In this document: positions 11,403-28,808 of the stretch, piece by piece
How positions within the stretch are numbered: position 1 is the first letter of the stretch
Layout of the letters: each line of letters begins with the position of its first letter
Source of the DNA: Haloarcula laminariae
GTDB lineage: Archaea > Halobacteriota > Halobacteria > Halobacteriales > Haloarculaceae
Direction: 5' to 3'
Length of the DNA stretch: 64,000 nt
NCBI RefSeq assembly: GCF_025457605.1
Contig: NZ_JAMZFY010000002.1
Span: 682,001-746,000, forward strand
The notes under the pieces: generated by a model
What the model was told of the DNA's origin: nothing
Database searches by the model: none
What the model saw: the letters and a program-made list of their open reading frames with translations, nothing else
Position numbers and translations under genes: made by a program

Positions 11403-12518
11403 ATGAATACAGCAACCCACGTCACCATTGTCCTCGGTACACGACCGGAAATTATCAAGCTCTCGCCGGTGATTCGTGCGTGCGAACGTGAGGGCGTTCC
11501 GTTTACACTCGTCCACACCGGACAGCACTACTCCGAGTCGCTCGACAGCGTCTTTTTCGACCAGCTAGAGCTTCCGGAACCGGACTACCAGCTCGATGTC
11601 GGCTCGGGGTCACATGGTGAACAGACTGGGGCGATGCTCGCCGAGATAGAGCGGGTAATCCTTGATGTCGAACCCGATTTGGTGCTCGTGCAGGGAGACA
11701 CAAACTCGGTACTGGCTGGCGCGCTCGCGGCGAGTAAGTTGCCTGTCGAAATCGGCCACGTTGAGGCCGGCCTTCGGAGCTTCGACCGGGAGATGCCCGA
11801 AGAGACAAACCGTGTCCTCGCCGACCATGTCGCGGACTACCTGTTCGCCCCGACCGAAACGTCGGCCGACTACCTCCGGGACGAGGGGCTGGACAACGAG
11901 CGGATACACGTGACCGGGAACACGGTCGTCGACGCCGTCCAGCGACACAGCGACTTCGCGGCCGAGAAGAGCGCAGTTCTCAAAGGCTTTGAACTCGAAC
12001 CGGACGAGTTCATACTGTTGACGGCCCATCGAGCGGAGAACGTCGACGACCGGGACCGGTTCGCCGACCTGCTCGACGGTGTCGCACGGGCCGCCTCGGC
12101 ACTCGACCGCGAGGTGGTGTACCCGATTCATCCACGCGGTCGGCAGCGACTCGACGAGTTCGACCTGATGGTCCCCGACTGCGTGCGGCTGGTCGACCCG
12201 CAGGACTATCTGGACTTCCTCGAGCTGGAACGAGCCGCGTCGGTGATTCTCACTGACTCCGGCGGCGTCCAAGAGGAAGCCTGTATCCTCGGTGTCCCCT
12301 GTGTGACACTCCGGGACAACACCGAGCGTCCCGAGACCATCGATGTCGGTGCGAACCGACTGGTCGGTGTTGATTCGGACGCAATCAGAGACGGAGCTGT
12401 TGAGATGTACGAAAGGACAACCGGGTGGGAGAACCCGTTTGGCGATGGAACGGCATCGGAACAGATACTTACAGCGGTGTGTGAACGGTCGACTGACGAC
12501 CAGCAGGTCTCACAATGA
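11403..12518 (+). CDS. wecB: UDP-N-acetylglucosamine 2-epimerase
   Basis: A 371-residue enzyme converting UDP-GlcNAc to UDP-ManNAc. Family marks: VLGTRPEIIKLSPVI at the N-terminus, LVHTGQHYSESLD, VQGDTNSVLAGALAA, GHVEAGLRSFDREMPEE, TAHRAENVD, and the UDP-binding LTDSGGVQEEA near residue 280. Length fits non-hydrolysing WecB/MnaA enzymes. It begins 11 nt after the glycosyltransferase stop and overlaps the dehydrogenase by 4 nt (ATGA), so the two enzymes are translationally coupled as consecutive pathway steps. Confidence 0.95.
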   Translation: MNTATHVTIVLGTRPEIIKLSPVIRACEREGVPFTLVHTGQHYSESLDSVFFDQLELPEPDYQLDVGSGSHGEQTGAMLAEIERVILDVEPDLVLVQGDTNSVLAGALAASKLPVEIGHVEAGLRSFDREMPEETNRVLADHVADYLFAPTETSADYLRDEGLDNERIHVTGNTVVDAVQRHSDFAAEKSAVLKGFELEPDEFILLTAHRAENVDDRDRFADLLDGVARAASALDREVVYPIHPRGRQRLDEFDLMVPDCVRLVDPQDYLDFLELERAASVILTDSGGVQEEACILGVPCVTLRDNTERPETIDVGANRLVGVDSDAIRDGAVEMYERTTGWENPFGDGTASEQILTAVCERSTDDQQVSQ

Positions 12519-13816
12519 GCACGATCTACGTCCACGGACTCGGATACATTGGGTTGCCGACAGCAGCGATGTTCGCGAACTATGACCATGAGGTCACCGG
12601 GTACGACATTGACGAGGCGATTATTGAGGGCCTCGACAATGGTGACGTCCACATCGATGAACCCGGTCTCCGAGCGTTCGTCACGCAAGCGCTAGAATCC
12701 GGCAACCTAACCGTGAGCAACGAGGTTGGCGAGGCAAAGTATCATATTATCGCCGTCCCGACGCCGTTTGACGACGAGACCAAGGAGCCAACACTCGACT
12801 ACGTCGAGGCCGCCGGCGAGGCTATCGCACCGCATCTCCGCACTGGCGACACGGTCATCCTCGAATCGACCGTTCCACCGGGTACGACTGTCGAGACGTT
12901 ACAGCCGGCCCTCGAACAATCCGGGCTGGACGCGGGCGCCGATTTTGCACTCGTCCACTGTCCCGAAACCGTTCTTCCGGGCGATATAATCACGGAACTC
13001 AAGCAAAACGACCGTATCATCGGGGGCGTAAACGGTGTTTCGACTGAGGCCGCCGTTCGCCTCTACAAGTCCTTCGTGGAGGGTGAGATTTACACGACAG
13101 AAAACGCAACAACGGCTGAGTTCGTCAAGCTCATCCAGAACACCTATCGGGATGTCAATATCGCACTGGCGAACGAACTGGCGCTCATTGGAGAGGACTA
13201 CGATATCGACTCCCGCGAGGCCATCGAGATGGCGAACACACATCCACGCGTCGAACTCCACCAGCCCGGGCCGGGCGTCGGTGGCCACTGTCTCCCGATA
13301 GACCCGTGGTTCCTCGGCCATGACTCAGACCAGCTTGACCTGATTAGCACCGCGCGAGCGATTAACGACGGGATGGCCGGCTACATCGTTGACATCCTCC
13401 GTGAGGAACTCGGGACGCTGGATGGCAAACAGATTGCGCTGTTCGGTGTTGCATACAAGGGGAACGTCGGCGACATCCGAGAGAGTCCGGCGCTGGACCT
13501 GGCTACCGAACTGCAACAGGCCGTCGCCGAGCCGCCGGAAGCGACAGCCGACGGCGGGATACAGTCGGACAGCGGTGGCGTCGATGTCCGGCTCCACGAC
13601 CCCCACGTCGACGACCAGGTACTCGACCTCGTCGGCTTCGAGGCGGCCGTCGGCAGCGCGGACGCCGTCGTCATCACGACCGACCACGACGAGTTCGCCG
13701 AACTCGACCCCGAGAAACTGCGCGAATCGATGACCGGTGACCTGGTCGTGGACACGAAGGATATGCTCCCCGAACGCGAGTGGATATCAGAAGGGTTCTC
13801 ACTGCGGCGTATCTGA
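12515..13816 (+). CDS. wecC: UDP-N-acetyl-D-mannosamine dehydrogenase
   Basis: A 433-residue UDP-sugar dehydrogenase that would oxidise UDP-ManNAc to UDP-ManNAcA with 2 NAD. The Rossmann start is IYVHGLGYIGLPTAAMFANY. The catalytic Cys is about residue 259 in GPGVGGHCLPIDPWFL, the lysine-containing AEFVKLIQNTYRDVNIALANE is the central helix, and the C-terminal UDP-binding domain includes FGVAYKGNVGDIRESPA. The GGHCLPIDP form is typical of WecC rather than UDP-glucose dehydrogenases, whose equivalent in this window (46051-47355) reads GGSCFPKD. It is coupled to the epimerase by ATGA. Confidence 0.94.
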   Translation: MSTIYVHGLGYIGLPTAAMFANYDHEVTGYDIDEAIIEGLDNGDVHIDEPGLRAFVTQALESGNLTVSNEVGEAKYHIIAVPTPFDDETKEPTLDYVEAAGEAIAPHLRTGDTVILESTVPPGTTVETLQPALEQSGLDAGADFALVHCPETVLPGDIITELKQNDRIIGGVNGVSTEAAVRLYKSFVEGEIYTTENATTAEFVKLIQNTYRDVNIALANELALIGEDYDIDSREAIEMANTHPRVELHQPGPGVGGHCLPIDPWFLGHDSDQLDLISTARAINDGMAGYIVDILREELGTLDGKQIALFGVAYKGNVGDIRESPALDLATELQQAVAEPPEATADGGIQSDSGGVDVRLHDPHVDDQVLDLVGFEAAVGSADAVVITTDHDEFAELDPEKLRESMTGDLVVDTKDMLPEREWISEGFSLRRI

Positions 13817-13824
13817 ACACCAGT

Positions 13825-14871
13825 ATGTCAACCACGACGACCGGATGGATAGACCTCGCGAGTCCGTCCCATCCGTTCTTTTTCCACGCGCTGGCGTCGG
13901 AGATTCCACACGTCGATTTTCGGACTACAGTCCGAAACAAGACGGAGACTGTCGACCTGGCTGCTGAAGTTGGCTTCGACTACACCGTCGTCGGACGGGA
14001 TTTCGACAACCCACTGTTGCGGAAGGTCGGGATCCCACTCCGGACGGGCCAGCTCACACTCTCTGCGCCAGACGCCGACGTGTCGTTGTCCTCGCGGAAC
14101 GCGATGTGCGTACTCGCGTCGAGGGCCCGTGGGATTCCGTCGATTCACTTCACGGACAACGATATCACCGCCCACGTTGACGGGCTGCGATACGAGAAGC
14201 TATACAACCGGCTGGAGGCGATGGCGACCCACAACGTCGTTCCGGCTGCCTTCGAGACCGAGGAGCTGACCAAGCGCGGCGCAGGCCCCGACAGCGTCCA
14301 CACTTACGACGGGTACAAGGAAGATATCTATATCGCCGACTTCGAACCTGACTCGAATTTCACGGACCAGTTCCCCTTCGAGGAGTATATCGTGATCCGC
14401 CCCGAGGCGTTGGACGCGGCCTACGTCGACGCAGAGCGCTCGCTGGTGCCCGACCTGCTGGAGGGTGCCGCCGAGCGTGACCTCTCGGTGGTGTATCTGC
14501 CCCGTGGACGCGGTGACGAGGCGCATGCCAACCCGTACGACAAGACGCAAGTCTATGTCCCCGACGGCGCGCTCAACGGGCTGCAGCTGGCCTGGCACTG
14601 TCGCTGTATGCTCACCGGCTCTGGAACGATGGCACGCGAAGCGGCCTGTATGGAGAAGCCGGCCGTCTCCTTCTTCCCGAACACGCTGCTGTCTGTCGAC
14701 CAAGAGATGGAAGCCGAGGGCCGGATCTTCCATTCGCGCGAGTCGGAGGCGATACTTGACTACGTCGACTCGATTGACCAGCAGAATGTCGCTCCCGATC
14801 GCGGACGAGCCCAGAGTGTTCGTAACGAGGTTGTGGACTTGGTGACCCGGTTGCTCGCCCAAAACACATGA
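13825..14871 (+). CDS. DUF354 family protein (glycosyltransferase-like)
   Basis: A 348-residue protein with start at ATG 13825 (MSTTTTGWIDLASPSHPFFF), 8 nt after the dehydrogenase stop; an in-frame upstream start would overlap that gene by 37 nt. The DUF354 pattern is seen: an N-terminal Rossmann-like half ending in SIHFTDNDI, then VIRPEALDA, VVYLPRGRGDEAHANPYDKT, and a GT-B-like C-terminal GSGTMAREAACMEKPAVSFF. DUF354 proteins resemble UDP-GlcNAc epimerases and GT-B transferases and sit in polysaccharide loci. Context suggests transfer or modification of the sugar made by the preceding genes. This is the last gene of the plus-strand operon. Confidence 0.87.
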   Translation: MSTTTTGWIDLASPSHPFFFHALASEIPHVDFRTTVRNKTETVDLAAEVGFDYTVVGRDFDNPLLRKVGIPLRTGQLTLSAPDADVSLSSRNAMCVLASRARGIPSIHFTDNDITAHVDGLRYEKLYNRLEAMATHNVVPAAFETEELTKRGAGPDSVHTYDGYKEDIYIADFEPDSNFTDQFPFEEYIVIRPEALDAAYVDAERSLVPDLLEGAAERDLSVVYLPRGRGDEAHANPYDKTQVYVPDGALNGLQLAWHCRCMLTGSGTMAREAACMEKPAVSFFPNTLLSVDQEMEAEGRIFHSRESEAILDYVDSIDQQNVAPDRGRAQSVRNEVVDLVTRLLAQNT

Positions 14872-14913
14872 GCTCCGATACCTGAAACGCAAAACTCGTT
14901 GGGTGTGTTACGG

Positions 14914-15828
14914 TTACAGTAAAGACTGGTACAACGACACAAGCTGTTCACCCATCCGTGTCGTCGACCATTCCTTCGATTTCTTTGACCCATCTGATCG
15001 AACATTCGTCTCTACGATTCTATCTAGTTTAGCTGCGAACTCAGGTGGCGACGTACAGATATACGAGTGCGTGATATCTTCGAGCACTTGTGCAGTGAAT
15101 CCAACATCTGCGGAGACCACGGGAACGTTACACGCGGCAGCTTCCTTAACGACCATCGGGCCCGTTTCCCGTCTTGACGTGATCAAAACAGCGTCGCTAG
15201 CGTTCATATAGTACGGCACCTTGTCGTGGGGAACGTTAGACAGTGTACGTAACTCTACGTCTTGGTCCATCTCTTTGATAACTTTCTCAGCGAGGGCGTA
15301 GTTTTTTACTGGCCGCGATTTCGCAGCCGGAAAGAGGACTACTGATTGATTATCGTCCCAATTGACAAACTCTCTTGCCTTGTGACGGGGAATCGGACGG
15401 AATTTTTCGGTATCGATAGGAAAGGGCACAGTTGCGTGTTGGCGGGGAAGCGATGATGACATATTCTCTGATGGAAGTATGACTTCATCAAAAAAATATG
15501 AGAGCCGTCGGCTCACTGGGCCGAGTTTTCCAACGAGGTCAGATCCCCAGAGTGTCAGTACGATGGGGCGGTGTGGCTGTCCGATGGCATACGGTGCAGT
15601 TAATCCGTGGTTCGCATGTATTATGTCGTATGACTTTGTTGCATGTTGAAGTACATCCGGGTAGAACTGAAAATAATCGGCAATCGAACGTCGGTCAATG
15701 GCCTCGTTGTCGGCAGTGTGTTGACCGGGGACACAGAGGGTTGTGATCTCGATATCCTGCTTACGGAGAGAATAAATCTGATTGTTGAAGAAAGGGCGAA
15801 GAGAATTAGTCAGCTGGAGTACGTGCAT
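14914..15828 (-). CDS. Glycosyltransferase family 4 protein
   Basis: A 304-residue GT-B enzyme, on the short side for GT4 (usually 350-400). It starts MHVLQLTNSLRPFFNNQIYS, has an N-terminal acceptor domain (HANHGLTAPYAIG), a linker (VVLFPAAKSRPVKNYALAEK) and the nucleotide-sugar C-terminal motif (ASDAVLITSRRETGPMVVKEAAACNVPVVSADVG). That form, E-T-G-P-MVVKEAAACN, is the usual E-x7-E donor site. The gene is visibly richer in A/T than its neighbours to the left and marks the start of the lower-GC part of the locus. It lies 60 nt downstream of another GT4 in the same direction. Confidence 0.88.
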   Translation of the reverse strand: MHVLQLTNSLRPFFNNQIYSLRKQDIEITTLCVPGQHTADNEAIDRRSIADYFQFYPDVLQHATKSYDIIHANHGLTAPYAIGQPHRPIVLTLWGSDLVGKLGPVSRRLSYFFDEVILPSENMSSSLPRQHATVPFPIDTEKFRPIPRHKAREFVNWDDNQSVVLFPAAKSRPVKNYALAEKVIKEMDQDVELRTLSNVPHDKVPYYMNASDAVLITSRRETGPMVVKEAAACNVPVVSADVGFTAQVLEDITHSYICTSPPEFAAKLDRIVETNVRSDGSKKSKEWSTTRMGEQLVSLYQSLL

Positions 15829-17232: not shown

Positions 17233-18975
17233 GTGGTAATTCAGAGGGCAAAATTCTGGCTCATCCTCGGTAATATAGCTATTGCTGCAGCCGTTTTGCT
17301 GAGCCACTTGAATCCCGCTACATCTTACGAATATAATCTCTACACAGCGACACCAGTAATAGTCTGGGTACTGCTATTCTGTTCAGTGGTTATTGCTGTT
17401 AATGTATCATTATCCCGTCAGTATTCTCTTCATTGGGCATCAATGTCGACACTCTTGTTGGTTGGAATTGTCGTCTTGTTACTCCCGCTTCTCAGAGGAT
17501 ATTATATATATGGGGTGGGCGATTCGTTTACCCATCTTGGATGGTTGAAAGACTTAGAGACGAGTACTCTTGATCCCTCACAATTCAGGTACCCTATTCT
17601 ACATCTCCAATCTCTCGGTCTGAGTCTCGTGGGTGATTTCGCTCTCCGTCACGGTATCTATCTCGGGGCTGTTAGCTACACGTTAGTCTTGGTCGCAATA
17701 TGTCCGCTGTTCGCACGAGCCATAACCGGGCGTCATCGGCCTACTATGATTGTCGCGATTGCCGCGACAAGCTTCTTCCCCATAATTAATATTCTTGTAG
17801 CCAACGTAAGTGCCCAACCCGCCTCACAGTCCGCTATATATTTCGTTTTGCCGGCTTACCTTTTATACAAGACCATCTACGAACCATCGTACCGGAATTA
17901 CGCACTGGTCATCTGTAGCAGCTTTGTACTCACACTGCTACATCCACATCGTGGAGCGACATTATTATTATATGCGGTTGGTTTAGTTGTAAGCATCCAT
18001 TTTGTTAATATTAACAATTTATTAAGGCGCGGAAAAATGCGAATTATCTCTTCAATATTAGTTGTCGGTCTCGTACTCTGGCTATGGATTGAGGGACAAC
18101 TTGTTCGATCGCTAGGGATAATTCTAGTGGGACTCCTTTCTATTGATGTGGGTAGCACAAGTGCAGGTGCTGGCCTCGCTAGTACGGCCACTCAAGCAGG
18201 GATCAGCCCAATCTCTATCATCCTACGGGCGTTCGCTACACCGATTATCTTCGCACTTGCCTCGATAGCGTTCATTTTCTATGTGCTCAGTGATTTATCA
18301 AGCGAGATATCGAAGCGCTCACTTGGGCTGCTCGGTGGAATGGCAGCACTGTTTGCGTTTCTAGTGTTTGCAGTTGTGGCAGGGGTATTCCTGTCGTTCC
18401 GCAATCTGACACCACTACTAGTTCTCGGGGTTATCACCGGTGGCATTGGCCTATTCCAACTGAGTGAAAGTCGATATCTATCGGGGCGTGTGATTAAGAA
18501 TGCCATCGTTGCAACTGTCTTGATACTCGCCCTGACACTCTCCGGAGCAACTATCCACGATTCAAGTTACATCACCCAGCGAAGCTCGCACGTCACTCAA
18601 GCCCAAATGGAAGGTTACAGTACTTCTTTCGAGTACTGGGACGAGGAGAGTCACTTCGCTGCGATACGTGCACAACCTCAACGATACAAACATGCACTAT
18701 ATGGGGTTGAAGAGACACGTGAGTTGAATTATTCCGGCATGCCGTATCGACTACCACGGTACTCGTTTGTCCCTTCTCACATGGCGAACCATAGCCTCAA
18801 CAGTGCCTACCCGCGTGGACAAAAGATCGTTGTGACACAGATGGACAGACAGTATTACCGTAAAACGCTCGATGGGTTTAGATACAATGCGTCCGATTTC
18901 GCTTACCTTAATTCGACCAACCACGTCGGTAGGACGTATTCGAACGGTGAGTTCGTCGTTTATACTGTAATGTAA
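17233..18975 (+). CDS. Polytopic membrane protein, possibly GT-C fold
   Basis: A 580-residue membrane protein with about 12 hydrophobic segments. The start is GTG 17233, preceded by a TATA box at leaderless distance; the next ATG is about 70 codons in and would remove two helices. The first outward loop contains GVGDSFTHLGWLKDLE, reminiscent of the acidic first-loop motif of GT-C glycosyltransferases, followed by FRYPILHLQSL. The last 130 residues are hydrophilic and probably outside. There are no close marks of O-antigen ligase or polymerase. In this locus it could be a lipid-linked-sugar glycosyltransferase or a repeat-unit polymerase. The lower GC matches its neighbours. Confidence 0.75.
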   Translation: MVIQRAKFWLILGNIAIAAAVLLSHLNPATSYEYNLYTATPVIVWVLLFCSVVIAVNVSLSRQYSLHWASMSTLLLVGIVVLLLPLLRGYYIYGVGDSFTHLGWLKDLETSTLDPSQFRYPILHLQSLGLSLVGDFALRHGIYLGAVSYTLVLVAICPLFARAITGRHRPTMIVAIAATSFFPIINILVANVSAQPASQSAIYFVLPAYLLYKTIYEPSYRNYALVICSSFVLTLLHPHRGATLLLYAVGLVVSIHFVNINNLLRRGKMRIISSILVVGLVLWLWIEGQLVRSLGIILVGLLSIDVGSTSAGAGLASTATQAGISPISIILRAFATPIIFALASIAFIFYVLSDLSSEISKRSLGLLGGMAALFAFLVFAVVAGVFLSFRNLTPLLVLGVITGGIGLFQLSESRYLSGRVIKNAIVATVLILALTLSGATIHDSSYITQRSSHVTQAQMEGYSTSFEYWDEESHFAAIRAQPQRYKHALYGVEETRELNYSGMPYRLPRYSFVPSHMANHSLNSAYPRGQKIVVTQMDRQYYRKTLDGFRYNASDFAYLNSTNHVGRTYSNGEFVVYTVM

Positions 18976-19308: not shown

Positions 19309-19353
19309 ACAACTGTCTATACTGTAGGAAGCCGCATCGGGTTCATTCGAGTG

Positions 19354-19479
19354 ATGACAAATAACAAATTCCACACTTATACTGTTCCAACGGAAAACTG
19401 TAATGGCAAGATAGTTGCTATCAATACAAGCTCAGGCAATCTCGTTCCAATCAAGTTCGTGACCGTGTACCAGAACTAG
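19354..19479 (+). pseudogene. Fragment carrying the shared N-terminal tag of the surface module
   Basis: A 41-codon frame from ATG 19354 to TAG 19477 reads ENCNGKIVAINTSSGNLVPIKF. It aligns with the N-terminal tag of the proteins at 19969 (ENGTIVAYDSGENKVPIRF) and 23772 (ENGKIVGYDSDGNKVPVSF). After the stop, another frame continues as VPELVDSDGDDTVNGSTALY to TGA at about 19590, consistent with a frameshifted remainder. I interpret it as a decayed third copy; it is too short to claim function. Confidence 0.45.
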
Positions 19480-19668
19480 TTGACAGCGACGGTGATGACA
19501 CAGTCAATGGTTCGACAGCTCTGTACGATCTGTTGACTGACACTGTTAACAATGGAACAATCTCCGCGACTCACTTGGGCCAGTACTGAGGGAATCGTGC
19601 TTGAGAACACATCAAATTAAGATAATTATGTATGAAGGGTTATTACAAATCGGAAAATAGAGTGGCTA

Positions 19669-19972
19669 TGGACAGTTGCTCCCGGTTCTCGCGACGCAAG
19701 TTTTTGTCCGCAGTAGGGTCAGCTGTTCCACTTGCAGCGTGTCCCCATCCAAGGAGATCGGGCTGTGGATCCAGAACAAAAACAGTCACCACACCAAGTA
19801 CACTCGAAATTCCAGCAAATAGTATATGGCTGTCTCTTCAATATCTACGGACACAACATCCGAGGTAGGAGACATCAATTTAGCTCACACTTACAAATCC
19901 ATCATGTGGGAAACAAGTGGCCAACTCATTGTTGAAGATGGCGCCTCGCTCAACATAACTGATACAGCATGA
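19669..19972 (+). pseudogene. Frameshifted Tat-signal small protein (broken copy of 23443-23775)
   Basis: Begins MDSCSRFSRRKFLSAVGSAV, with a twin-arginine SRRKF motif and hydrophobic core ending in AAC. The frame then breaks. The true C-terminus resumes in another frame as SIMWETSGQLIVEDGASLNI and stops at TGA 19970-19972. That tail matches RIVWEDTGQLVIEDGAGLEL at the end of the intact gene 23443-23775. In both copies the TGA overlaps the ATG of the next gene as ATGA, so the gene pair was duplicated as a unit. At least two frameshifts separate signal and tail. Confidence 0.6.
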
Positions 19973-20601
19973 GTGATATCGAACTTCGGAATGAAAACGG
20001 CACAATTGTTGCATACGATAGTGGCGAGAATAAAGTCCCAATCAGGTTCGACGAAGGGATCTTCGATTCGGTCAGTACAACAGAGCAGTATATCAACAAC
20101 AAGCAGCTCTACGTCCAAGACGGCCAGCCCAATGACCTGACAGATGCCGTCTGGTTGGATTCGGACGCCCAACCGTTCTCCTCTGTCAAAGTCCATCTCA
20201 CAAGCGACCAGAGCATTTCCGCTGATACCTCGTCAGCCACGGTCGAATTTAATGATGTCGTCGAGGACAACCGTGAGGAGTATGATGGGGCTGCGTATGA
20301 GTGGACTGCGGACGAGGCAGGGGAATCTGATATCAGCGGGCAAATTGGCATTGCTCAAAAGGCAGGGGGCGACCAGATAACCACATTTGTGTGGGTCAAC
20401 GGACAGGTCGAAAGACGTAACAATGGGCAAATTGCCGACCTGAGTACTGGCGACCCGACAACTGACCACGCGCTGCCGGACGGGACCTACGACCTCAGCG
20501 CTGGCGACACTGTCTATGTGACGTTCCGCAATGTCACCTCCCCCTGTACAATCGTGTCAGACACTGACCGCACGTATCTCAAAATTCAGCGGGTTGACTA
20601 A
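19969..20601 (+). CDS. Tagged beta-rich secreted-type protein of the surface module
   Basis: A 210-residue acidic protein. Residues 1-35 (MSDIELRNENGTIVAYDSG and following) are the tag shared with the protein at 23772. The rest (residues 45-210) is predicted beta-rich with repeated Thr/Asp/Val patterns (FSSVKVHLTSDQSISADTS, GDTVYVTFRNVTSP), compatible with a jelly-roll or C1q-like fold. No signal peptide of its own is seen, so export would depend on a partner or it may be a passenger of a larger assembly. The start overlaps the broken lipoprotein gene by ATGA. A BNR-type gene follows 6 nt later. Family unknown to me. Confidence 0.65.
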   Translation: MSDIELRNENGTIVAYDSGENKVPIRFDEGIFDSVSTTEQYINNKQLYVQDGQPNDLTDAVWLDSDAQPFSSVKVHLTSDQSISADTSSATVEFNDVVEDNREEYDGAAYEWTADEAGESDISGQIGIAQKAGGDQITTFVWVNGQVERRNNGQIADLSTGDPTTDHALPDGTYDLSAGDTVYVTFRNVTSPCTIVSDTDRTYLKIQRVD

Positions 20602-20607
20602 CCGGCG

Positions 20608-21849
20608 ATGATACCTGATAGAGATGCTTCTTGGACGTGGCATCAGGACCCCCGTGCGGTCCACATCGAGGGCAAGACGTATCTGGGCTACGTTGACCAG
20701 CGGGGAAACATCAAAGCATACAGTTACAACCACGATGCTGACGAGGCCCGCGAAGCTATCCTCCACGCCAACCTCATTCGCGACGACCACGTCGCCCCCA
20801 TACTCTACGAGCGCGACGACGGAAGATTCATTTGCCAGTACGCACGGAACGAGACAGGGCTATTGCAGCGTATTAGTGCCCGACCACACGATATCCGGAA
20901 CTGGCGGCCCGAGCAAACAATTGGCAATGGGGACTGGAACTATCCGAATCCAGTCTGCTACGACGGTGACATCCATCTGTTGGCTCGCGCCGGCATTGAA
21001 GGGTTGAGCGACTACGAGCAGTATAGATTCATCTCCTCCGATGGCGGCGAGACATGGTCGTCGCCGACGCAGGTGACGTTGTTCGACGACCGCGCATATC
21101 TCAAAGTCGCGTCATTCGACGACACGCGATACTATCTTGCACTCACATCAGCAACAGACACCCAGCCAAATCAGGCGTTCTGCATCTACTACGAGGACGG
21201 GGCGTACTACGAGCTGGACGGCACACAGGTCGGAACCTCGGGCCTACCACTGACCGAGTCCGACCTCTCCAGCCTGTACACGGTCGATGGCGATGCATTC
21301 GGTGGGCTTCGTATCTGGGACATCGTCACGCTGGCTGCCGATGACGTCCGGATACTGCTCGCAGATGTTGACGACACGAGCAACCACATCTACAAGGAGG
21401 CTCGCTGGGATGGCAGCTCGTGGGCCGTCGAGACCATCGTCGAATCGGGAGCGTCGCCGGTTGCAATCGCGTATTACTCCGGCGGCCTGTGTTATGCTGG
21501 CGGCGATACCGACACAGTCTACCTCTCCCAAAACGACGGCGGGACGCATGAAGTGTACACGGCGACGCGCGACGGGGGGTCGTGGCCGACGACTCAGGTC
21601 ACATCTTCGTCTGCTGATGACCAGTGGCGACCGATGCGAGTGCGAAACGGGCGCAGTGATATGCCCGCAGTCTGGTTATCTGTCCAAGATTTCCGGACCT
21701 TCACAAAATATCGACAGACAGTGACAAGCGAGTTAGCTGGGACAGAGCAGCCACCGACGCCAGTCCCGCCTCGAAAAAACCCTGCAAGGGATGTCTTCGG
21801 TCAGACTGCCAGCGGCGAGATAATCAGGTTGCGGTCAGTCCGTCGATAG
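20608..21849 (+). CDS. BNR_4-type beta-propeller protein
   Basis: A 413-residue protein of the BNR-repeat (sialidase-like propeller, BNR_4) type. It opens DASWTWHQDPRAVHIEGKTY and includes SYNHDADE, RFISSDGGETWSSPTQVTLF (an Asp-box: S-x-D-x-G-x-T-W) and AVWLSVQD near the end. Such domains bind or cleave polysaccharides; catalytic residues cannot be assigned from sequence alone. No signal peptide is visible. It starts 6 nt after the tagged gene, so the two are coupled. A broken second copy lies at 22144-23279. The C-terminus (TASGEIIRLRSVRR) may be shortened by a frameshift, since an open frame continues beyond it. Confidence 0.78.
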   Translation: MIPDRDASWTWHQDPRAVHIEGKTYLGYVDQRGNIKAYSYNHDADEAREAILHANLIRDDHVAPILYERDDGRFICQYARNETGLLQRISARPHDIRNWRPEQTIGNGDWNYPNPVCYDGDIHLLARAGIEGLSDYEQYRFISSDGGETWSSPTQVTLFDDRAYLKVASFDDTRYYLALTSATDTQPNQAFCIYYEDGAYYELDGTQVGTSGLPLTESDLSSLYTVDGDAFGGLRIWDIVTLAADDVRILLADVDDTSNHIYKEARWDGSSWAVETIVESGASPVAIAYYSGGLCYAGGDTDTVYLSQNDGGTHEVYTATRDGGSWPTTQVTSSSADDQWRPMRVRNGRSDMPAVWLSVQDFRTFTKYRQTVTSELAGTEQPPTPVPPRKNPARDVFGQTASGEIIRLRSVRR

Positions 21850-21860
21850 GTCCTGAATCC

Positions 21861-22043
21861 CAGAACACAACTGGGACCCCAATCCTTGTTAGCATCAATG
21901 CTCGCATCACCCCCGGCGGCGCGGATGAGTTGTTTGAAGCCGCTTTACTCACTTCTGGCCTGTCTGGTATATCTGGGAGCGATTTGTATAAATTCGGGAC
22001 CAAGTTTACCAGACCGACGACTCTGAACTTCGGGCAGTCTTAA
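21861..22043 (+). other. Open-frame remnant downstream of the BNR gene
   Basis: A coding-like frame, shifted by -1 relative to the BNR gene, runs through the BNR stop and continues as NTTGTPILVSINARITPGG and LTSGLSGISGSDLYKFGTKF to TAA 22041-22043. It has no start of its own. It may be the lost C-terminal domain of the BNR protein after a frameshift, or part of another decayed copy. The remaining intergenic stretch to 22143 shows nothing further. Confidence 0.35.
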
Positions 22044-22143
22044 CAGCCATTGTTCCGCCAAATAATCATTACACCCTATCATCTTCGTCTTCGAACTTTG
22101 AAATTCTCCGTTGGATGGAGCGCGAGTTCATCGGAGGGAGCTA

Positions 22144-23279
22144 ATGCTTCCGGCAGAGTTTGCGACTGTGACCCGAGACAGCGCGTGGACAATCCACCAG
22201 TGTCCGCGGGCGATACGGGTGGGCGACAAGACGTTTGTCGGCTCAATTAGTTCCAACGGCGTCATCCAAGTCACCTCGTACAACCACTCGGTGGACACGT
22301 TTCAACACACACAGTTAGCGACCATCTATATCCACGACCACAGTTCTCCGTCAATATACGCCCGCGACGACGACTGTCTCGTGGTATTCTGGACCACTCG
22401 ACGGGACAGCAAAGACCATATAATGTCCTGAAGGGTCAGCGATGCGGCGCTCGATATCTCCGCATTTGGAGATGTGAAGATGTTCACTTCCGACGCGGCA
22501 ATAGATTACCCACAGCCCCTATCGTGGAATGGCAATCTCCGCGTGTACTACCACTATGGCAGCGGCTCGACTGCGAGCTGGCGATATCGTGTTTCAACAG
22601 ACGAAGGCCAGACCTTCGGTGCTGAGCAGACTGCTATCAAGGACAGCGACGGGTAATGGGTCTATACCCATTACCATCGGGAGGGCGACAAGCTGCACTT
22701 CGCCCTTGGCGACCACCGCATGACCGAGACAGGCATCTACCACGGATACCTCCAGAACGGGGACTACTACCAATCGGATGGCACGCAAATCCAGAGCTCC
22801 ACTTCGGAGATTACGGACGTAGCGCCCCTCACACAGATATTTGACGGCGCTGCGAACAATCCTGCCAAACAGTACGTTTGGCGACGGATGCTGACGGCAA
22901 TCTTGTCGTCGCGTTTACCAAACACGTCGCAACGGGCACTGGCGGCGGTGATGGGGATTACCGTGTGCGGTGGGCGCGGTGGGACGGCTCGCAGTGGGTC
23001 GTTGGTAGCGAAATAACTGCTATGGGTGACTCCTTGCCCGAGAACCATTACTACGAGGGTGGGCTGTCACTCGACAGCGCCGACCCAACCAGTGTCTATG
23101 TGTCCGTGGAGCAGCCTAATCGCAATTACGAAATCCAAGAGTGGCAGACGAGTGGCAACGGGTCATCGTGGACGAAGCAGCGGGACGTGTCCGCGGCGGA
23201 TGCGACGTTTGCCAGCCCGACAAAACGTGGCCGGCCAATTAGTCCGAGGGGGCATCAGGGAGACTTGCCTATCCTCTGA
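22144..23279 (+). pseudogene. Broken second copy of the BNR_4-type gene
   Basis: From ATG 22144 the product starts LPAEFATVTRDSAWTIHQCP and aligns with the intact protein (DxxWTxHQxPRAI, KTFVG, SYNH). The frame is broken by TGA at 22429-22431 and TAA at 22654-22656. It then shifts near 22,870 into the frame reading ATDADGNLVVAFTKHVATG and ends at TGA 23277-23279. Between the stops the same frame is clearly coding-like (YRVSTDEGQTFGAEQTAI, another Asp-box). Divergence from the intact copy is high, so this is an old paralogue and not a recent duplication. Confidence 0.72.
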
Positions 23280-23442
23280 TGGTCGAGCTCTTACTACGGC
23301 TTTGAGAGTTATGAGACTCAATCACGGCGCGATGGCTGATGAGCCTGATTTGCCGGTGAAATATGCCTCAAAGTTGCTTCAAATTAGAGATGGGTATGAC
23401 CAAATACTTTTCAGCAGGTGAAGATCAATACTTGGTAAACAA

Positions 23443-23775
23443 ATGGTCCCATGGCTTTCTCGACGAGAGATGTTGGCTGCTGTCGTAGTGGGGTCGACCG
23501 TTGGACTTGCTGGTTGCAGTAAATCAGATAACATCACCACACCAACCGCGACAGACACGCTCACCCTCTCTGCGAACACTTCTACGACAGTTTCACCGAC
23601 CGATACACCTACGCAAACACCGACGGCCAAGAGAGTACAGTCAGACCGGCTCGTTGTCGAAGGCGGGGAGACCGTGGCCGAGGCGGCCGGAGTCTACGAC
23701 CGCATCGTGTGGGAAGACACTGGCCAGCTCGTCATCGAAGACGGCGCCGGTCTCGAACTCACGGAGGCAGAATGA
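23443..23775 (+). CDS. Small Tat/lipobox protein of the surface module
   Basis: A 110-residue secreted protein. The N-terminus WLSRREMLAAVVVGSTVGLAGC has a twin-arginine motif (SRREML), a hydrophobic core and a lipobox-like LAGC, so a lipid anchor on the outer face is likely. A Thr/Ser/Pro-rich spacer (residues 30-65) follows, then a short folded end with DRIVWEDTGQLVIEDGAGLE. The same end occurs in the broken copy at 19669-19972. Its TGA overlaps the ATG of the tagged beta-helix gene. It may tether or present the protein encoded next; that role is inferred from the repeated gene pairing only. Confidence 0.75.
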   Translation: MVPWLSRREMLAAVVVGSTVGLAGCSKSDNITTPTATDTLTLSANTSTTVSPTDTPTQTPTAKRVQSDRLVVEGGETVAEAAGVYDRIVWEDTGQLVIEDGAGLELTEAE

Positions 23776-25232
23776 CTGACATCGAACTACGGAACGAGAA
23801 CGGCAAGATCGTCGGCTACGATAGTGACGGAAACAAAGTCCCGGTCAGCTTCGAAGACGGGGTGTTTGATTCGCTCAGTGCAGAGCGCATATACCCCAAT
23901 CCGGCTGAGTCGTCCAAACATACGTCAACAGAGCGTCCTCAGATTTCCTCGGAGTCCCACACTTTCTACGTGGACCCTGACAGCGGCAGCGACTCAAATC
24001 CGGGGACTGATACCGAACCACTTCAGACTATCGGCGAGTTCCTAAATCGCCTTCCAGAGTTCACATACCACCAGTACAAGTGCCTACTCAAGCCCGGCAC
24101 CTACAACGAGGGTGGCACAATCATCGGGGCGCCGGTTAATATCATCGGGAGTGACCCGCACAACGACTCGTTCGTCATCAAGTCGACAACAGGTACACCA
24201 TCGGACGTGGTAATCGAAAATTCGTTGGCCCTTGGAACCATCACCAATGAAATGGATGACGCGTTTATAAGCAACATCACGTTCGCAGACTCTTTCCAAC
24301 TGCTCTCTGGCAATATAAAGTTGGGGAACGTTACATTCACTGGAGCTGAAAACTCTCTCAACGGTATCGCTGCCCCGATCCACCACACGGGTTCAATCAC
24401 ATTCCAGGACTGCAATTTCCAAACGGGGCTCACTCATGCAGCCCAACTTCGTCAGGGGGCCCAAGCCTACTTCTCAAACTGTGATGGAAGGGTAAGCGGG
24501 TATGTCGCTGTTGCCCGCCACAATGGTCAGGTTTCTGAGGACTCGCAAAACAATGTTATTGGGAAGATTGGTTTCGCTTACCAAGGCCGCGGTGGGCGCT
24601 ATATCAACTATGATGGCGAGCCGTACAGCCGAGATGCCCGCGTCTATGATGACTGGGGGGACGGGCGTCTCAGTAATCGCCTTCGCCCCGCGACAGCGGG
24701 TTATCGTCCCGAGTGGACTAACGATCACGGTTCGCCAACAGCCCGAGAAGGAGGAGCGGTCCTCCCTACAGGCGACTCAAACTACCAATCAATTATCTCG
24801 CCGTACAAGAAATCGAAAATGACAACAGGAACGTGGACTGTTGAGTTTTCTTGTCAATCCACGCCGACGGCAGGCGAACTCTGGCTGGAGCTCATTCGAC
24901 AGGGCAACAATAACCGGTACTACGTTGATTTCGCTGGCGACGGTAATCTTGCGTTGGCAAAGGTTGAGGGAGGAGTGGCCTCTGCTCCTATTACAAGTTC
25001 GTGGACGCCTGACACCGCAACGCGAGAGGTCAAATTTGTGCGGACGCAGGATGTGGATGGCAATGGGAACACTGGTCTCGAACTCATCGTTGACGGAAAC
25101 TCGCAAGGGACTGAGACAGAGACGTTCCTTCCTGATCCGAACTACATCCGTCTAACGAATCTGCTTGATGCAGAAGTTCACATTGAGTCAGTCCACGAAC
25201 GCCCTGAGATGGGTTCGCAAAACCTCTTGTGA
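23772..25232 (+). CDS. Tagged right-handed beta-helix protein
   Basis: A 486-residue protein whose residues 1-35 (MTDIELRNENGKIVGYDSD) are the tag seen at 19969. From residue about 60 it shows TFYVDPDSGSDSNPGTD and PLQTIGEFLNRLP, the start of a DUF1565-like pectin-lyase-type beta-helix that runs to about residue 280 (SGNIKLGNVTF, GSITFQDCNF). The last 170 residues resemble a concanavalin-like carbohydrate-binding sandwich (TGTWTVEFSCQSTPTAGELW, NGNTGLELIVDG). Tail-spike-like architecture suggests polysaccharide binding or cleavage. The start at 23772 is set by the ATGA overlap; an in-frame upstream start would add an arginine-rich run. Confidence 0.78.
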   Translation: MTDIELRNENGKIVGYDSDGNKVPVSFEDGVFDSLSAERIYPNPAESSKHTSTERPQISSESHTFYVDPDSGSDSNPGTDTEPLQTIGEFLNRLPEFTYHQYKCLLKPGTYNEGGTIIGAPVNIIGSDPHNDSFVIKSTTGTPSDVVIENSLALGTITNEMDDAFISNITFADSFQLLSGNIKLGNVTFTGAENSLNGIAAPIHHTGSITFQDCNFQTGLTHAAQLRQGAQAYFSNCDGRVSGYVAVARHNGQVSEDSQNNVIGKIGFAYQGRGGRYINYDGEPYSRDARVYDDWGDGRLSNRLRPATAGYRPEWTNDHGSPTAREGGAVLPTGDSNYQSIISPYKKSKMTTGTWTVEFSCQSTPTAGELWLELIRQGNNNRYYVDFAGDGNLALAKVEGGVASAPITSSWTPDTATREVKFVRTQDVDGNGNTGLELIVDGNSQGTETETFLPDPNYIRLTNLLDAEVHIESVHERPEMGSQNLL

Positions 25233-25284: not shown

Positions 25285-27654
25285 TCATGTACCGACTGTT
25301 TTATTCAAAGACTTGGTCCGGCCGTTGACGACCATTTTTTCGGTCACGTTCAGAGACTGATTTCCGACACGGTATTGACCGGTATATGGGACGATGACAC
25401 TGAACCCCCCAGAGGGGCCAGCCGATACCGTTCTGTTGTATGCGAACTCCCTCCCTTCAATTGAGACGGATGTAGAGATATTGATGGACGATTCTGGTTC
25501 CGCTTGTCCCACGATTCGAGTGCCTGGAACGACTTCGAAGACCTTTATTGAGGAATCTTTAGATATGTAGACTGCTCGGAAGTACTGTGTCCCGGGGGAG
25601 TCTCCTTGTCGACTCCCATGTCGGTTGTGGAGGATCTGGAATCCGGGCTCCTGTGCGAACCTAGACGTATTTTCAGTCACCACAAACCCCCTCACCATGA
25701 ATAGTTCTTGTCCTGAGCCGTCAATGGTTGACTGCTCCACCCAGGCGTCTGGATTTTCCGACTGTATTAGCTCTGAATAGTAAACTGTTGAAAATGAATA
25801 CGACCGCGACTCGCCGTTGACAAAGTAATTATAAATTCTACTCTTGTCCCATTCAGTGAGCACGTAGTTTTCCGGATATTCGATTCCTTTCTCTGTTGCA
25901 TATTGGTCGATCCAAACTGCGGTCTCGTAGGTATCTTCACCCGTTGTGATCTGGCTCATTTTGACTGGTGTCTGGACAAGTCCCATACTGGCAACGAGGA
26001 GGAAGAGCGCAACGAGTATACTGACCGTTTTTTTCTCGGGGATTTGGACCGACACTGAAGCGCGGTCACTGAAATCAATCGGTCGTGCACTCTCGATGGT
26101 TCCTGCTATATGTACTAATCCCATACCGGCGAAAATCGAGATGAACACTGATCCCTCACCAGCGAACCGGATTTGATTGATTGTTAGTACGGATATACTC
26201 AATGCAAAGATGCAGGTGACCAGCCACTGTGGCTGGTACTCTTGTACAGCACGCCAACTGAACCATGCGAGGTGTGGGAGTGCAAGGAAGAAGAAAAAGC
26301 CGTAGACGAATACGGGCCCTATTATCGACCCCAACTGACCTGAGAAAATAGAGCTCGTTTCGGCTACAGTCCCAGACTGTGAGAGGAATTGTCTGAACGT
26401 CAACACTGCCGGTCGAAGTTCTGGGAGGAGATACCATACGGATATAGTGCCCCCGAGTACAGCAGCGGTTGTGACTGCAGTTAGTTCCCGTGCTGATCTA
26501 CCCCTCCTGTGCCATAGCTCGGCGCTTCCGACGGAACCAACTGCACCGATTAAGAGGAGGAGTGGTGTGATACCTCGATAAAGCCCCATCCAACCCAATA
26601 GAGCGTGTAGCGAATATGTCAGCAACGAACCGATTGCGATACTACCAAGTAGCCAAATAGTCACCTCGGCGGGGGATCGGTCTGCCCTGACAGCCCCGAT
26701 GGCCAGCGCAGGAACGCAAATCGCAATCGGGAGTAGTAGGATCGGTCCGCCGCGCCATGCCGCGGCCTGTGCAGTAAGGCCCAATCCGAGTCCCAGCGCG
26801 GTCAACGGTTGTGCCCAGCGGTGGGATGGCTGACTATCTCCTATCCGGACCAGCTCCGTCATTGTGAACACGACGAACGCTAATACGAGGAAGTCGAACG
26901 CATGGTGATCACCGAATCCTAGTGCAGTTCGGTATGCGTGTGCAGGTGTGACTGCGAGTATCAATACTGAGGCTATTCCAATTCTTCGGTCACGAGTCAG
27001 ACGTGTTGCGAGGAGATATACAATTGCGCTCGTCACAGTAGCGACTATTACAGGATACCAGGCGACCACTAGTCCCGACGCAATCTGTCCGCTTCCCAGT
27101 AAACTACCGACCCACCACAGCGAGACGATCAACAGTACGTCGTCGTTCGCGACGCCGTCGGGCAGCTGCGTCAGCGACCCGATATCGAACGCCTGCAGGT
27201 CGCTCGCCAGCAGTGTATCGACCCAGTACCGGTAGAAGTAGGGGTCGTTGCCAGCCAGCACGATGTCGCTGCCGCGGAACACACTGGACCACATAAAAAC
27301 AATCCGAACCAGCGCCACGAACGCCAGTGCACTGGCGACGATCAGCGCATTCCGCTTTCCGATTTCGGGAAGTCTGATTGACGATAGGTCGAAGCTGCTC
27401 GTGTCACTTTCGCTCTCTATCGTCTCGTCATTTAGTGCTGCTTGGACAGCGCTCCGGTCAGCCACCCGGTAGCTATCGCCCTTCTTCTCGACAATGTTGC
27501 GCGAGACAATTTCGCCGAATGTACCGGAGTCGATAGAGACGTCGTCGTATGTCCAGGGGCCGTTTTCGTCGATGTCAAGAATCTCTTCGAGTGCGGATTC
27601 GATGTCGGGTCTGTCCGCGAGGAGGTCGTCTGTTGCCTCGCGTACGTCGTCCAT
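25285..27654 (-). CDS. STT3/AglB-like oligosaccharyltransferase homologue
   Basis: A 789-residue membrane protein of the STT3/AglB type, which transfers lipid-linked glycan to Asn of surface proteins. Residues 1-85 form a cytoplasmic winged-helix-like domain (GPWTYDDVSIDSGTFGEIVS). About 11-13 transmembrane helices follow. The first loop acidic motif is GNDPYFYRYWVDTLL, the second is GFGDHHAFDFLVL, and AWRGGPIL resembles AglB. In place of the WWDYG motif it has TEWDKSRIYNYF (Trp about residue 602). The C-terminus is an Ig-like secreted domain. The start ATG 27652-27654 is supported by a TATA box at leaderless distance; a longer open frame upstream runs into the IS. Confidence 0.83.
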   Translation of the reverse strand: MDDVREATDDLLADRPDIESALEEILDIDENGPWTYDDVSIDSGTFGEIVSRNIVEKKGDSYRVADRSAVQAALNDETIESESDTSSFDLSSIRLPEIGKRNALIVASALAFVALVRIVFMWSSVFRGSDIVLAGNDPYFYRYWVDTLLASDLQAFDIGSLTQLPDGVANDDVLLIVSLWWVGSLLGSGQIASGLVVAWYPVIVATVTSAIVYLLATRLTRDRRIGIASVLILAVTPAHAYRTALGFGDHHAFDFLVLAFVVFTMTELVRIGDSQPSHRWAQPLTALGLGLGLTAQAAAWRGGPILLLPIAICVPALAIGAVRADRSPAEVTIWLLGSIAIGSLLTYSLHALLGWMGLYRGITPLLLLIGAVGSVGSAELWHRRGRSARELTAVTTAAVLGGTISVWYLLPELRPAVLTFRQFLSQSGTVAETSSIFSGQLGSIIGPVFVYGFFFFLALPHLAWFSWRAVQEYQPQWLVTCIFALSISVLTINQIRFAGEGSVFISIFAGMGLVHIAGTIESARPIDFSDRASVSVQIPEKKTVSILVALFLLVASMGLVQTPVKMSQITTGEDTYETAVWIDQYATEKGIEYPENYVLTEWDKSRIYNYFVNGESRSYSFSTVYYSELIQSENPDAWVEQSTIDGSGQELFMVRGFVVTENTSRFAQEPGFQILHNRHGSRQGDSPGTQYFRAVYISKDSSIKVFEVVPGTRIVGQAEPESSINISTSVSIEGREFAYNRTVSAGPSGGFSVIVPYTGQYRVGNQSLNVTEKMVVNGRTKSLNKTVGT

Positions 27655-27678
27655 ACGATGTGTAACCGTAGAGGCGCG

Positions 27679-27685
27679 AATAAAC
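27679..27685 (-). promoter_or_regulatory. TATA box of the AglB-like gene, left intact by the IS
   Basis: GTTTATT on the minus strand, centred about 28 bp before the ATG at 27654. The IS inserted about 50 bp further upstream, so this promoter survives. Confidence 0.5.
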
Positions 27686-27731
27686 CCACCGGAAAGATAG
27701 TTGCTCTCTTCTCGGTGCCTCAGATTAGTGT

Positions 27732-27754
27732 TACACAAAGAGGGTGTCATAGAA
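27732..27754. repeat. IS left end: target duplication and inverted repeat
   Basis: TACACAA (27732-27738) is the target copy. AGAGGGTGTCATAGAA (27739-27754) is the 16-bp terminal repeat, matching the reverse complement of the right end exactly. Confidence 0.88.
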
Positions 27755-28808
27755 CAGTTGCCACACCAAAGAGCAGGGTGAACGCTGAGATGGATGAGTC
27801 CAGCGACCCTGCAAGATGAGCCTTCGGTAGAGTCGTTCTTCAATGTCGCGGAGACTGAAACGCTAGCGCTGTTTGAGCATCTCTCTTTCGGGTTTCTTGA
27901 GGAGTTCGACGTGTTCGCCCCGGCGGAGACGGGGCGAACACGAGAGCATGAGCCACCAGAGATGATGCGTGGGTTTCTCCATTGCTACTACCACGACATC
28001 TACGGCATTCGTCCCGTTGAACGGGAGCTTCGGAACACGGTCGTTTGGGTGAGCTGCGGCTTCGATCGACCGCCGTCGAGAGACGCGGTCGATCGCTTCC
28101 TCACTGATCTTGAACACGTTGTCGACGAAGTCTTTGACCACCTCGTCGAGCAGGCCGCCCGCCGCGGCCTGCTCGACTTGACCTACTGCATCGATTCAAC
28201 AGATGTGAGGGCGATGCCCGCCGACCAAGACGCCTCAAAGTGCTACGACCCAACCGACGATGAGTACTATTACGGCTACGGCTGTACGATTGTCTCGACT
28301 GGACAAAAGATTCCGATTGCAGCGGAGTTCACCGAGAGCAAACAAGCGCCAGAGGAGACGGCGATGCGCGTCACGTGTGACGCGCTCGCCGTCGCAAAGC
28401 CGATTTGGATGGTTGGTGACAGTGCCTACGACACGCTTGACTGGCACGACCACCTGCTGGCCGCAGGGGTCGTGCCAGTCGCTCCGTACAACGCGCGAAA
28501 CACCGACGACCCGAAAGATATCGAGTACAGGGTCGAAGACCACATCGGACAACATAGTGAGGACGTTCAGCTGAAGCAGTCCACGTTAGATGAGACGTAC
28601 AACCGCCGTACTGGAGTCGAACGAACCAACGAATCAGTGAAGGACTGCGGCCTCGGGCGAACGCACGCCCGAGGCCGCGTCCATGCACGAGCACAGGTGT
28701 TTCTCACTTTGTGTCTTCGTCTCGTCGTTGCAATCACCAATTACGAACGCGGAGACAATCCGGGCAGCACGATCATCACGGTGTGAGAAGACTTCTATGA
28801 CACCCTCT
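27739..28808 (+). mobile_element. IS5/IS4-like insertion sequence, 1,070 bp, complete
   Basis: A complete insertion sequence bounded by perfect 16-bp inverted repeats (27739-27754 and 28793-28808) and flanked by the 7-bp direct repeat TACACAA. It carries one DDE transposase. It lies between the stop of the flippase gene and the promoter of the AglB-like gene, both on the opposite strand. Removing it and one target copy leaves an ancestral gap of roughly 87 bp between those two genes. Its GC content and codon use resemble the core genome more than the AT-richer flanks, so it came from elsewhere after the locus was formed. Confidence 0.9.
27794..28786 (+). CDS. DDE transposase of the insertion sequence
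   Basis: A 330-residue IS5/IS4-like DDE transposase. Catalytic positions are recognisable: first Asp in YCIDSTDVRAMPADQD (about residue 136), second in MVGDSAYDTLDW (about residue 215) and the Glu in NRRTGVERTNESVKD (about residue 279). An N-terminal helical DNA-binding region precedes them. The gene is undamaged from start to stop, so the element may be active. It starts 39 nt after the left inverted repeat and stops 6 nt before the right one. Confidence 0.9.
   Translation: MSPATLQDEPSVESFFNVAETETLALFEHLSFGFLEEFDVFAPAETGRTREHEPPEMMRGFLHCYYHDIYGIRPVERELRNTVVWVSCGFDRPPSRDAVDRFLTDLEHVVDEVFDHLVEQAARRGLLDLTYCIDSTDVRAMPADQDASKCYDPTDDEYYYGYGCTIVSTGQKIPIAAEFTESKQAPEETAMRVTCDALAVAKPIWMVGDSAYDTLDWHDHLLAAGVVPVAPYNARNTDDPKDIEYRVEDHIGQHSEDVQLKQSTLDETYNRRTGVERTNESVKDCGLGRTHARGRVHARAQVFLTLCLRLVVAITNYERGDNPGSTIITV

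Follow-up and report, generated by a model that had tools for sequence, protein, structure and literature searches.

Why does a gene cluster for N-glycan assembly in a haloarchaeon carry, in two copies, a gene pair that couples a small lipoprotein to a protein related to viral tail fibres? This question is raised by a 64,000-nucleotide stretch of Haloarcula laminariae (hereafter the window; positions 682001-746000 on contig NZ_JAMZFY010000002.1, C2, of a 3.69 Mb haloarchaeal genome). The first gene of the module encodes a lipoprotein with a twin-arginine translocation (Tat) signal that ends in a conserved motif, here called the tail, and the second encodes a protein that opens with a conserved segment, here called the tag, followed by an exchangeable body. 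Sequence comparison leads us to the view that the module is probably a cell-surface display unit for tail-fibre-type adhesins, made of the Tat lipoprotein and the tag protein, which suggests that cells display putative virus-type receptor-binding proteins on their own surface.

A preliminary description of the window, made from its letters, had proposed two small Tat/lipobox genes, each coupled to a gene opening with one and the same tag. Two such tag genes are indeed present, their products sharing 63% identity across residues 1-43 and no similarity detectable by BLAST past residue 43. Directly before each of them lies the tail (consensus Y..IVWE.TGQLVIEDGA), and both junctions have the form ATGA, in which the start of the second tag gene overlaps the stop of its lipoprotein gene. 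The lipoprotein genes themselves fared differently: the second is intact, but the first is broken by a frameshift, because its signal part and its tail occupy different frames. The third tag remnant of the preliminary description was recovered as a pseudogene (Table 1).

Recurrence of the gene pair

Profiles of the tag (about 40 residues) and of the lipoprotein tail (about 45 residues) were searched separately, and genomes are named below by our working handles. The tag search of 146 genomes of the family found G028 and G073, each with a lipoprotein gene before the tag gene. A tag-only search of 391 genomes of the class (four training tags), in which the lipoprotein played no part, gave seven further strong sites, with a Tat lipoprotein directly upstream in six of them. 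The tail profile recovered these loci on the same 391 genomes; new with it were G160 and, in G361, a second site, and a search of family f3 contributed G461. G160 and G461 provide the cleanest independent test, since most other tail matches are sequences from which the profile was built: both lie outside the tail alignment, and in each the tag gene comes next. A strong or plausible tail site is present in 14 genomes in all, and the module is rare (12 of the 391 class genomes, once G426 is dropped). Pairing goes beyond chance, because it is repeated in further haloarchaeal genomes, and the sequences make it almost certain that the pair is conserved.

Searches across haloarchaea with both profiles, the check put forward in the preliminary description, therefore bear out its expectation that tag and tail co-occur as adjacent genes with varied bodies behind the tag. 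The two motifs adjoin almost wherever they are found, and the tag, to which no Pfam family matches and which precedes several unrelated bodies, is not the start of one long-known family. Five weak tag matches (G403, G360, G384, G249 and G287) were rejected, as they had neither an upstream lipoprotein nor a tag at the protein start, and so was a tail match in G426 (E-value 0.008, about half of the model covered). A phylum sample yielded no new genome; the share of that sample outside the class is not shown, so a restriction to haloarchaea is not established. In a collection of 84,980 species the tag scan gave no confirmed match, and the sole match of the tail scan, Halorubellus salinus GX3, was judged to be the same as G337. 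Scans of IMG/VR with the tag, the tail and whole proteins did not find the pair; they returned one related beta-helix.

The anatomy of the pair is constant at its ends. Judged by eye, all 12 intact anchors carry the RR motif and 11 of the 12 the lipobox cysteine, the G160 anchor having the former without the latter; their linkers are rich in T, S, P and D and variable in length. The ATGA junction is general in lipoprotein pairs, with exceptions in G342 (a stop followed by ATG) and G461 (a gap of 3 nucleotides). By reading, all tag proteins begin at the tag and none, the second window protein included, has a signal peptide. No lipoprotein fused to a fibre was encountered.

Copies of the pair lie in differing surroundings. 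Glycan or sugar-nucleotide loci harbour it in five genomes (G000, G073, G337, G461 and G160), the copies of the window, G073, G337 and G461 being located outside virion genes. The tag genes of G361, G342, G288, G354 and G247 lie among virion genes, and tailed proviruses hold tail sites in five of the 14 genomes. Note also that the pair of G176 (L032) lies in an integrated element that has a DUF7845 gene as well as a gene whose product distantly matches Halorubrum spindle-shaped virus BLv25; should this element be a membrane virus, an envelope anchor would be a possible role for the lipoprotein. Broken copies comprise window copy 1 and the remnant, G218 and the interrupted copy of G461, and such frequent decay fits fast turnover. 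Frame changes past residue 131 disrupt the G218 tag gene (L031 9940-11013), which adjoins two lipoprotein genes, polysaccharide-related in look.

Tail-fibre homology and virion versions

The bodies behind the tag fall into several unrelated types. A beta-helix family is common to window protein 2 and the proteins of G073, G361, G337 and G461, and a C-terminal domain is shared by window protein 1, the fibre of provirus G354 and HALG_00044/gp29 of the haloviruses CGphi46 and HSTV-1; window protein 1 matches phrog_15750, which is also matched by the HALG_00044 C-terminus. The clearest link is that of the G461 protein, residues 57-375 of which (319 residues) are 46% identical to HSTV-1 gp29 (E-value 2e-70), a protein annotated as "virion component" in GenBank; to HALG_00044 (phrog_1627) the identity is 41% (E-value 2e-56). 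This homology begins just past the tag: the first 56 residues of the G461 protein are of other origin, the gp29 N-terminus is unrelated to them, and neither gp29 nor HALG_00044 contains a tag at significant score. The G461 tag gene (L070 7686-8813, minus strand) is interrupted by an in-frame stop, with the homologous C-terminus continuing behind it.

The G361 fibre matches CGphi46 with an E-value of 2e-18. A profile of the beta-helix family that includes the window, G461 and G361 proteins scores 136 bits against HALG_00044 in a five-sequence database, and window protein 2 alone reaches an E-value of 6e-5 in that five-sequence set. In tblastn searches of isolated phage genomes neither window tag protein had a match. 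Membership of window protein 2 among tail fibres thus runs through a chain of relatives, since alone it has no match in the full phage collection. Searches of PDB sequences gave no relative. A structure model of this protein has a mean predicted local distance difference test (pLDDT) score of 51, and at this low confidence its fold matches, galectins and phage tail spikes including that of CGphi46, lend weak support.

The bodies of G342, G288, G176, G247 and G028 have little or no BLAST similarity to others past the tag region, that of G342 matching a viral contig. The tag proteins of G103 and G160 (L034 9983-11506; L055 6125-7627, minus strand) share a body of about 500 residues (53% identity) that looks enzyme-like by reading; it has no Pfam match, and the G160 copy is also without a PDB-sequence or phage match. 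For the named families, we regard a relationship of the bodies to tail fibres as highly probable on the basis of these alignments.

Virion versions of the motifs are found in three tailed proviruses (G354, G361 and G247), where the same tail lies on virion-type proteins near a tag fibre. In G354, identified as a tailed provirus by a tape measure match (E-value 1e-88), the tail terminates a protein that is not a lipoprotein, and the gene that follows opens with the tag. The provirus of G361 is of the BJ1/CGphi46 type and encodes a 221-residue FN3 protein, residues 1-175 of which are homologous to the C-terminus of CGphi46 HALG_00046, the tail occupying the extra residues beyond this homology. 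It is followed by a Tat lipoprotein, the tag fibre and a HALG_00045 homologue; the tail is therefore present on both a virion protein and a Tat lipoprotein, beside a single tag fibre. In G247 a tail motif lies inside a 1469-residue hub protein (E-value 2e-5), with the tag fibre three genes further on. G342 and G288 are tailed proviruses with lipoprotein plus fibre. Homology of the bodies to haloviral tail proteins and virion versions of both motifs agree with the earlier comparison of the module to receptor-binding or tail-spike systems.

The window locus and its neighbours

The glycan assembly locus in which the preliminary description had placed the module is an N-glycan locus with WecB/WecC-like genes, group-1 glycosyltransferases, AglB/STT3 and a flippase (Table 1). 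Between this locus (window 11403-14871) and the syntenic one of G073 (L008 246-3725), sugar genes are 65-75% identical and the tag proteins just 37%, hinting from sequence that the fibre may change faster than the sugar genes. An open reading frame resembling a transposase lies at 27794-28786, flanked by the genes for AglB and the flippase.

The BNR_4 propellers that the preliminary description had interleaved with the module exist as stated, one intact and its paralogue broken, but they do not belong to it, since homologues in two genomes (G285 and G187) have no tags in their neighbourhoods; BNR_4 as a third module component was therefore rejected. The intact gene directly follows tag gene 1 and has no visible signal peptide. 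A multi-spanning membrane protein encoded after the pair in G342 (L028 11824-13644) is weakly similar to a 580-residue membrane protein of the window (17233-18975; 21% identity, E-value 5e-5 in a small set).

Table 1. Features of the module and of its surroundings in the window.
Feature	Position	Strand	Evidence
Third tag remnant, pseudogene	19354..19476	+	Tag profile A4 matches 19396-19458 in frame 19309-19476, E 3.4e-6 (among loci compared)
Signal part (RR and LAAC lipobox) at the 5' end of broken lipoprotein gene copy 1	19632..19868	+	Open reading frame list; SRRKFLSAVGSAVPLAAC in translation
Tail motif of broken lipoprotein copy 1	19823..19969	+	Tail profile A5 E 1.8e-16 (among loci compared); junction GCATGAG
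Tag protein 1: tag (~residues 1-41) and C-terminal domain as at haloviral tail fibre ends (phrog_15750)	19969..20601	+	
Intact Tat lipoprotein: RR residues 7-8, lipobox LAGC with Cys25, T/S/P-rich linker, tail motif 23638-23772	23443..23775	+	
Tag protein 2: tag 1-40, beta-helix ~54-265, C-terminal LamG/galectin-like sandwich ~339-478	23772..25232	+	
AglB/STT3 oligosaccharyl transferase (N-glycan locus context)	25285..27843	-	TIGR04154, PF02516, PF18079
Sugar-nucleotide and glycosyltransferase genes, syntenic with G073 locus (context)	11403..15828	.	42-75% identity to L008 genes
Intact BNR_4 propeller gene, neighbour outside conserved module	20608..21849	+	BNR_4 E 2e-13
Broken second BNR copy	22111..23279	+	Match ~22171-22821, two stops

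Proposed surface display and its alternatives

In the mechanism that we favour, the tail would be a socket and the tag a plug, and the two would dock. The virion would use this docking to hold its fibres, and the lipoprotein would shift the socket to the membrane. Coupling of the genes would let both proteins meet in the cytoplasm, from which the Tat signal of the lipoprotein would export the folded complex with the signal-less fibre (hitchhiker export). The lipid anchor and the T/S/P-rich linker would keep the fibre near the S-layer, where its targets for binding or cleavage would be surface glycans, probably such as the adjoining glycan locus produces.

Docking appears likely, because only the two ends that face each other across the gene boundary are conserved, the rest being exchangeable, and because virion hubs and their fibres re-use these ends. 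As just one partner has a Tat signal, co-export would follow on the known hitchhiker principle, a step that we consider reasonably probable by analogy: in bacteria, Tat is established to export partners lacking a signal along with the subunit that has one (PMC4273604), and haloarchaea make wide use of Tat and of lipobox anchoring (PMC12186497). Putative binding of surface glycans, or their trimming, is favoured to a similar degree, since glycan loci and tail-fibre ancestry both point there; the haloarchaeal virus HFTV1 has been proposed to recognise S-layer glycans (PMC12494034).

Several observations weigh against display by docking. The isolated viruses CGphi46 and HSTV-1, whose fibres are homologous, are without tag and tail; the G247 tag fibre has no adjacent lipoprotein and its tail match is weak; and no tail-fibre match was obtained for the bodies of G103/G160, G288, G028 and G176. 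The module is not always maintained, as window copy 1 and the copies of G218 and G461 are broken. Overlap of adjacent genes is also known from ordinary operons. For a model of tail and tag as a fusion, plain alignments misplaced rows; 700 random row subsets were tried under MAFFT, and the alignment was picked from the 54 that put tails and tags on their own halves. The resulting model is weak (pLDDT 60, predicted template modelling score 0.36), with only the tag hairpin at about 80-85, and hence uninformative on docking.

Lysogenic conversion or exclusion would add a function to the display unit and is compatible with it, being rather doubtful: a provirus would show its own fibre via the lipoprotein, occupy the glycan receptor and block related viruses, the glycan-locus copies being captured descendants. 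The position of the pairs at the end of the tail genes in the tailed proviruses G361, G342 and G288 speaks for it, as does the G361 arrangement of one fibre beside two tail-bearing proteins, and the lipoprotein Llp of phage T5, which serves exclusion, offers a precedent (PMC9586334). Putative receptor shielding by the provirus of G361 is an attractive case; however, copies in glycan loci without viral genes nearby are at least as numerous.

The five glycan or sugar loci, the enzyme-like look of the G103 and G160 bodies and the frequency of beta-helix and LamG folds among carbohydrate-active proteins could instead mean that the tag proteins process polysaccharides as enzymes, secreted or at the surface, with the lipoprotein as export partner only and the tail-fibre likeness due to shared folds. 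This is unlikely, as fold similarity falls short of explaining both a 319-residue match to a virion protein at 46% identity and the tag and tail motifs in virion gene clusters, and no catalytic residues were identified. Still less probable is an ordinary operon in which the two proteins are coupled without binding and tag and tail are unrelated conserved ends; it would accord with the lack of contact in the structure models, but not with conservation restricted to just the two ends that adjoin across the gene boundary amid variable bodies and linkers, nor with the recurrence of the same end in virion hubs. That all copies are provirus remnants, with the lipoprotein in the virion or in membrane assembly, is very improbable despite the tail sites in tailed proviruses of five of the 14 genomes and the G176 element with its spindle-virus match, given that the stretches read around the glycan-locus copies of G000, G073, G337 and G461 are free of viral structural genes.

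Returning to the display unit, we tentatively suggest that a provirus may have two sockets for one fibre, one on the virion tail and one on the Tat lipoprotein, and would thereby present a single receptor-binding protein both on virions and on the lysogen surface. Cells may have taken over the pair and retain it within N-glycan loci, where it would be an exchangeable adhesin for self-glycans or a shield of the virus receptor. If true, folded virus-type fibres could be displayed on the archaeal cell by Tat export through a socket common with the virion tail; one cassette would tie the receptor-binding proteins of viruses to surface glycan loci and to superinfection; and the short plug and socket might serve as a display tool in haloarchaea. 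The preliminary description is thus partly confirmed in its observations and supported in its interpretation. No description of such a system was found in the open literature searched, most subscription journals lying outside its coverage.

The closest known counterparts of the bodies are the haloviral tail fibres HALG_00044 of CGphi46 and gp29 of HSTV-1, to which they are homologous in beta-helix and C-terminal domain (the G461 protein being 41-46% identical). They differ from the tag proteins in having other N-termini of at least 100 residues without a tag, in lacking a lipoprotein partner in the viral stretches read, and in being encoded among virion genes, whereas the copies of the window, G073, G337 and G461 lie in glycan or sugar loci. 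As to export, hydrogenase-2 is one Tat hitchhiker complex. Another, PaoABC of E. coli (PMC4273604), similarly to the module has a Tat signal on one subunit and none on the partner; such complexes are cofactor enzymes, whereas here a virus-type fibre would be co-exported with a lipoprotein carrier. Phage T5 Llp is likewise a virus-encoded lipoprotein at the cell surface (PMC9586334), but Llp itself acts on the receptor and the lipoprotein described here would hold a separate fibre. Finally, haloviruses have tail adhesins whose variable binding part determines the cell surface that is recognised, both in Hafunaviridae adhesins (PMC8651126) and, as cited in PMC3950731, in the phase variation of phiCh1; in the module, by contrast, whole bodies of unrelated folds are swapped behind a short tag, and this occurs in cellular loci as well.

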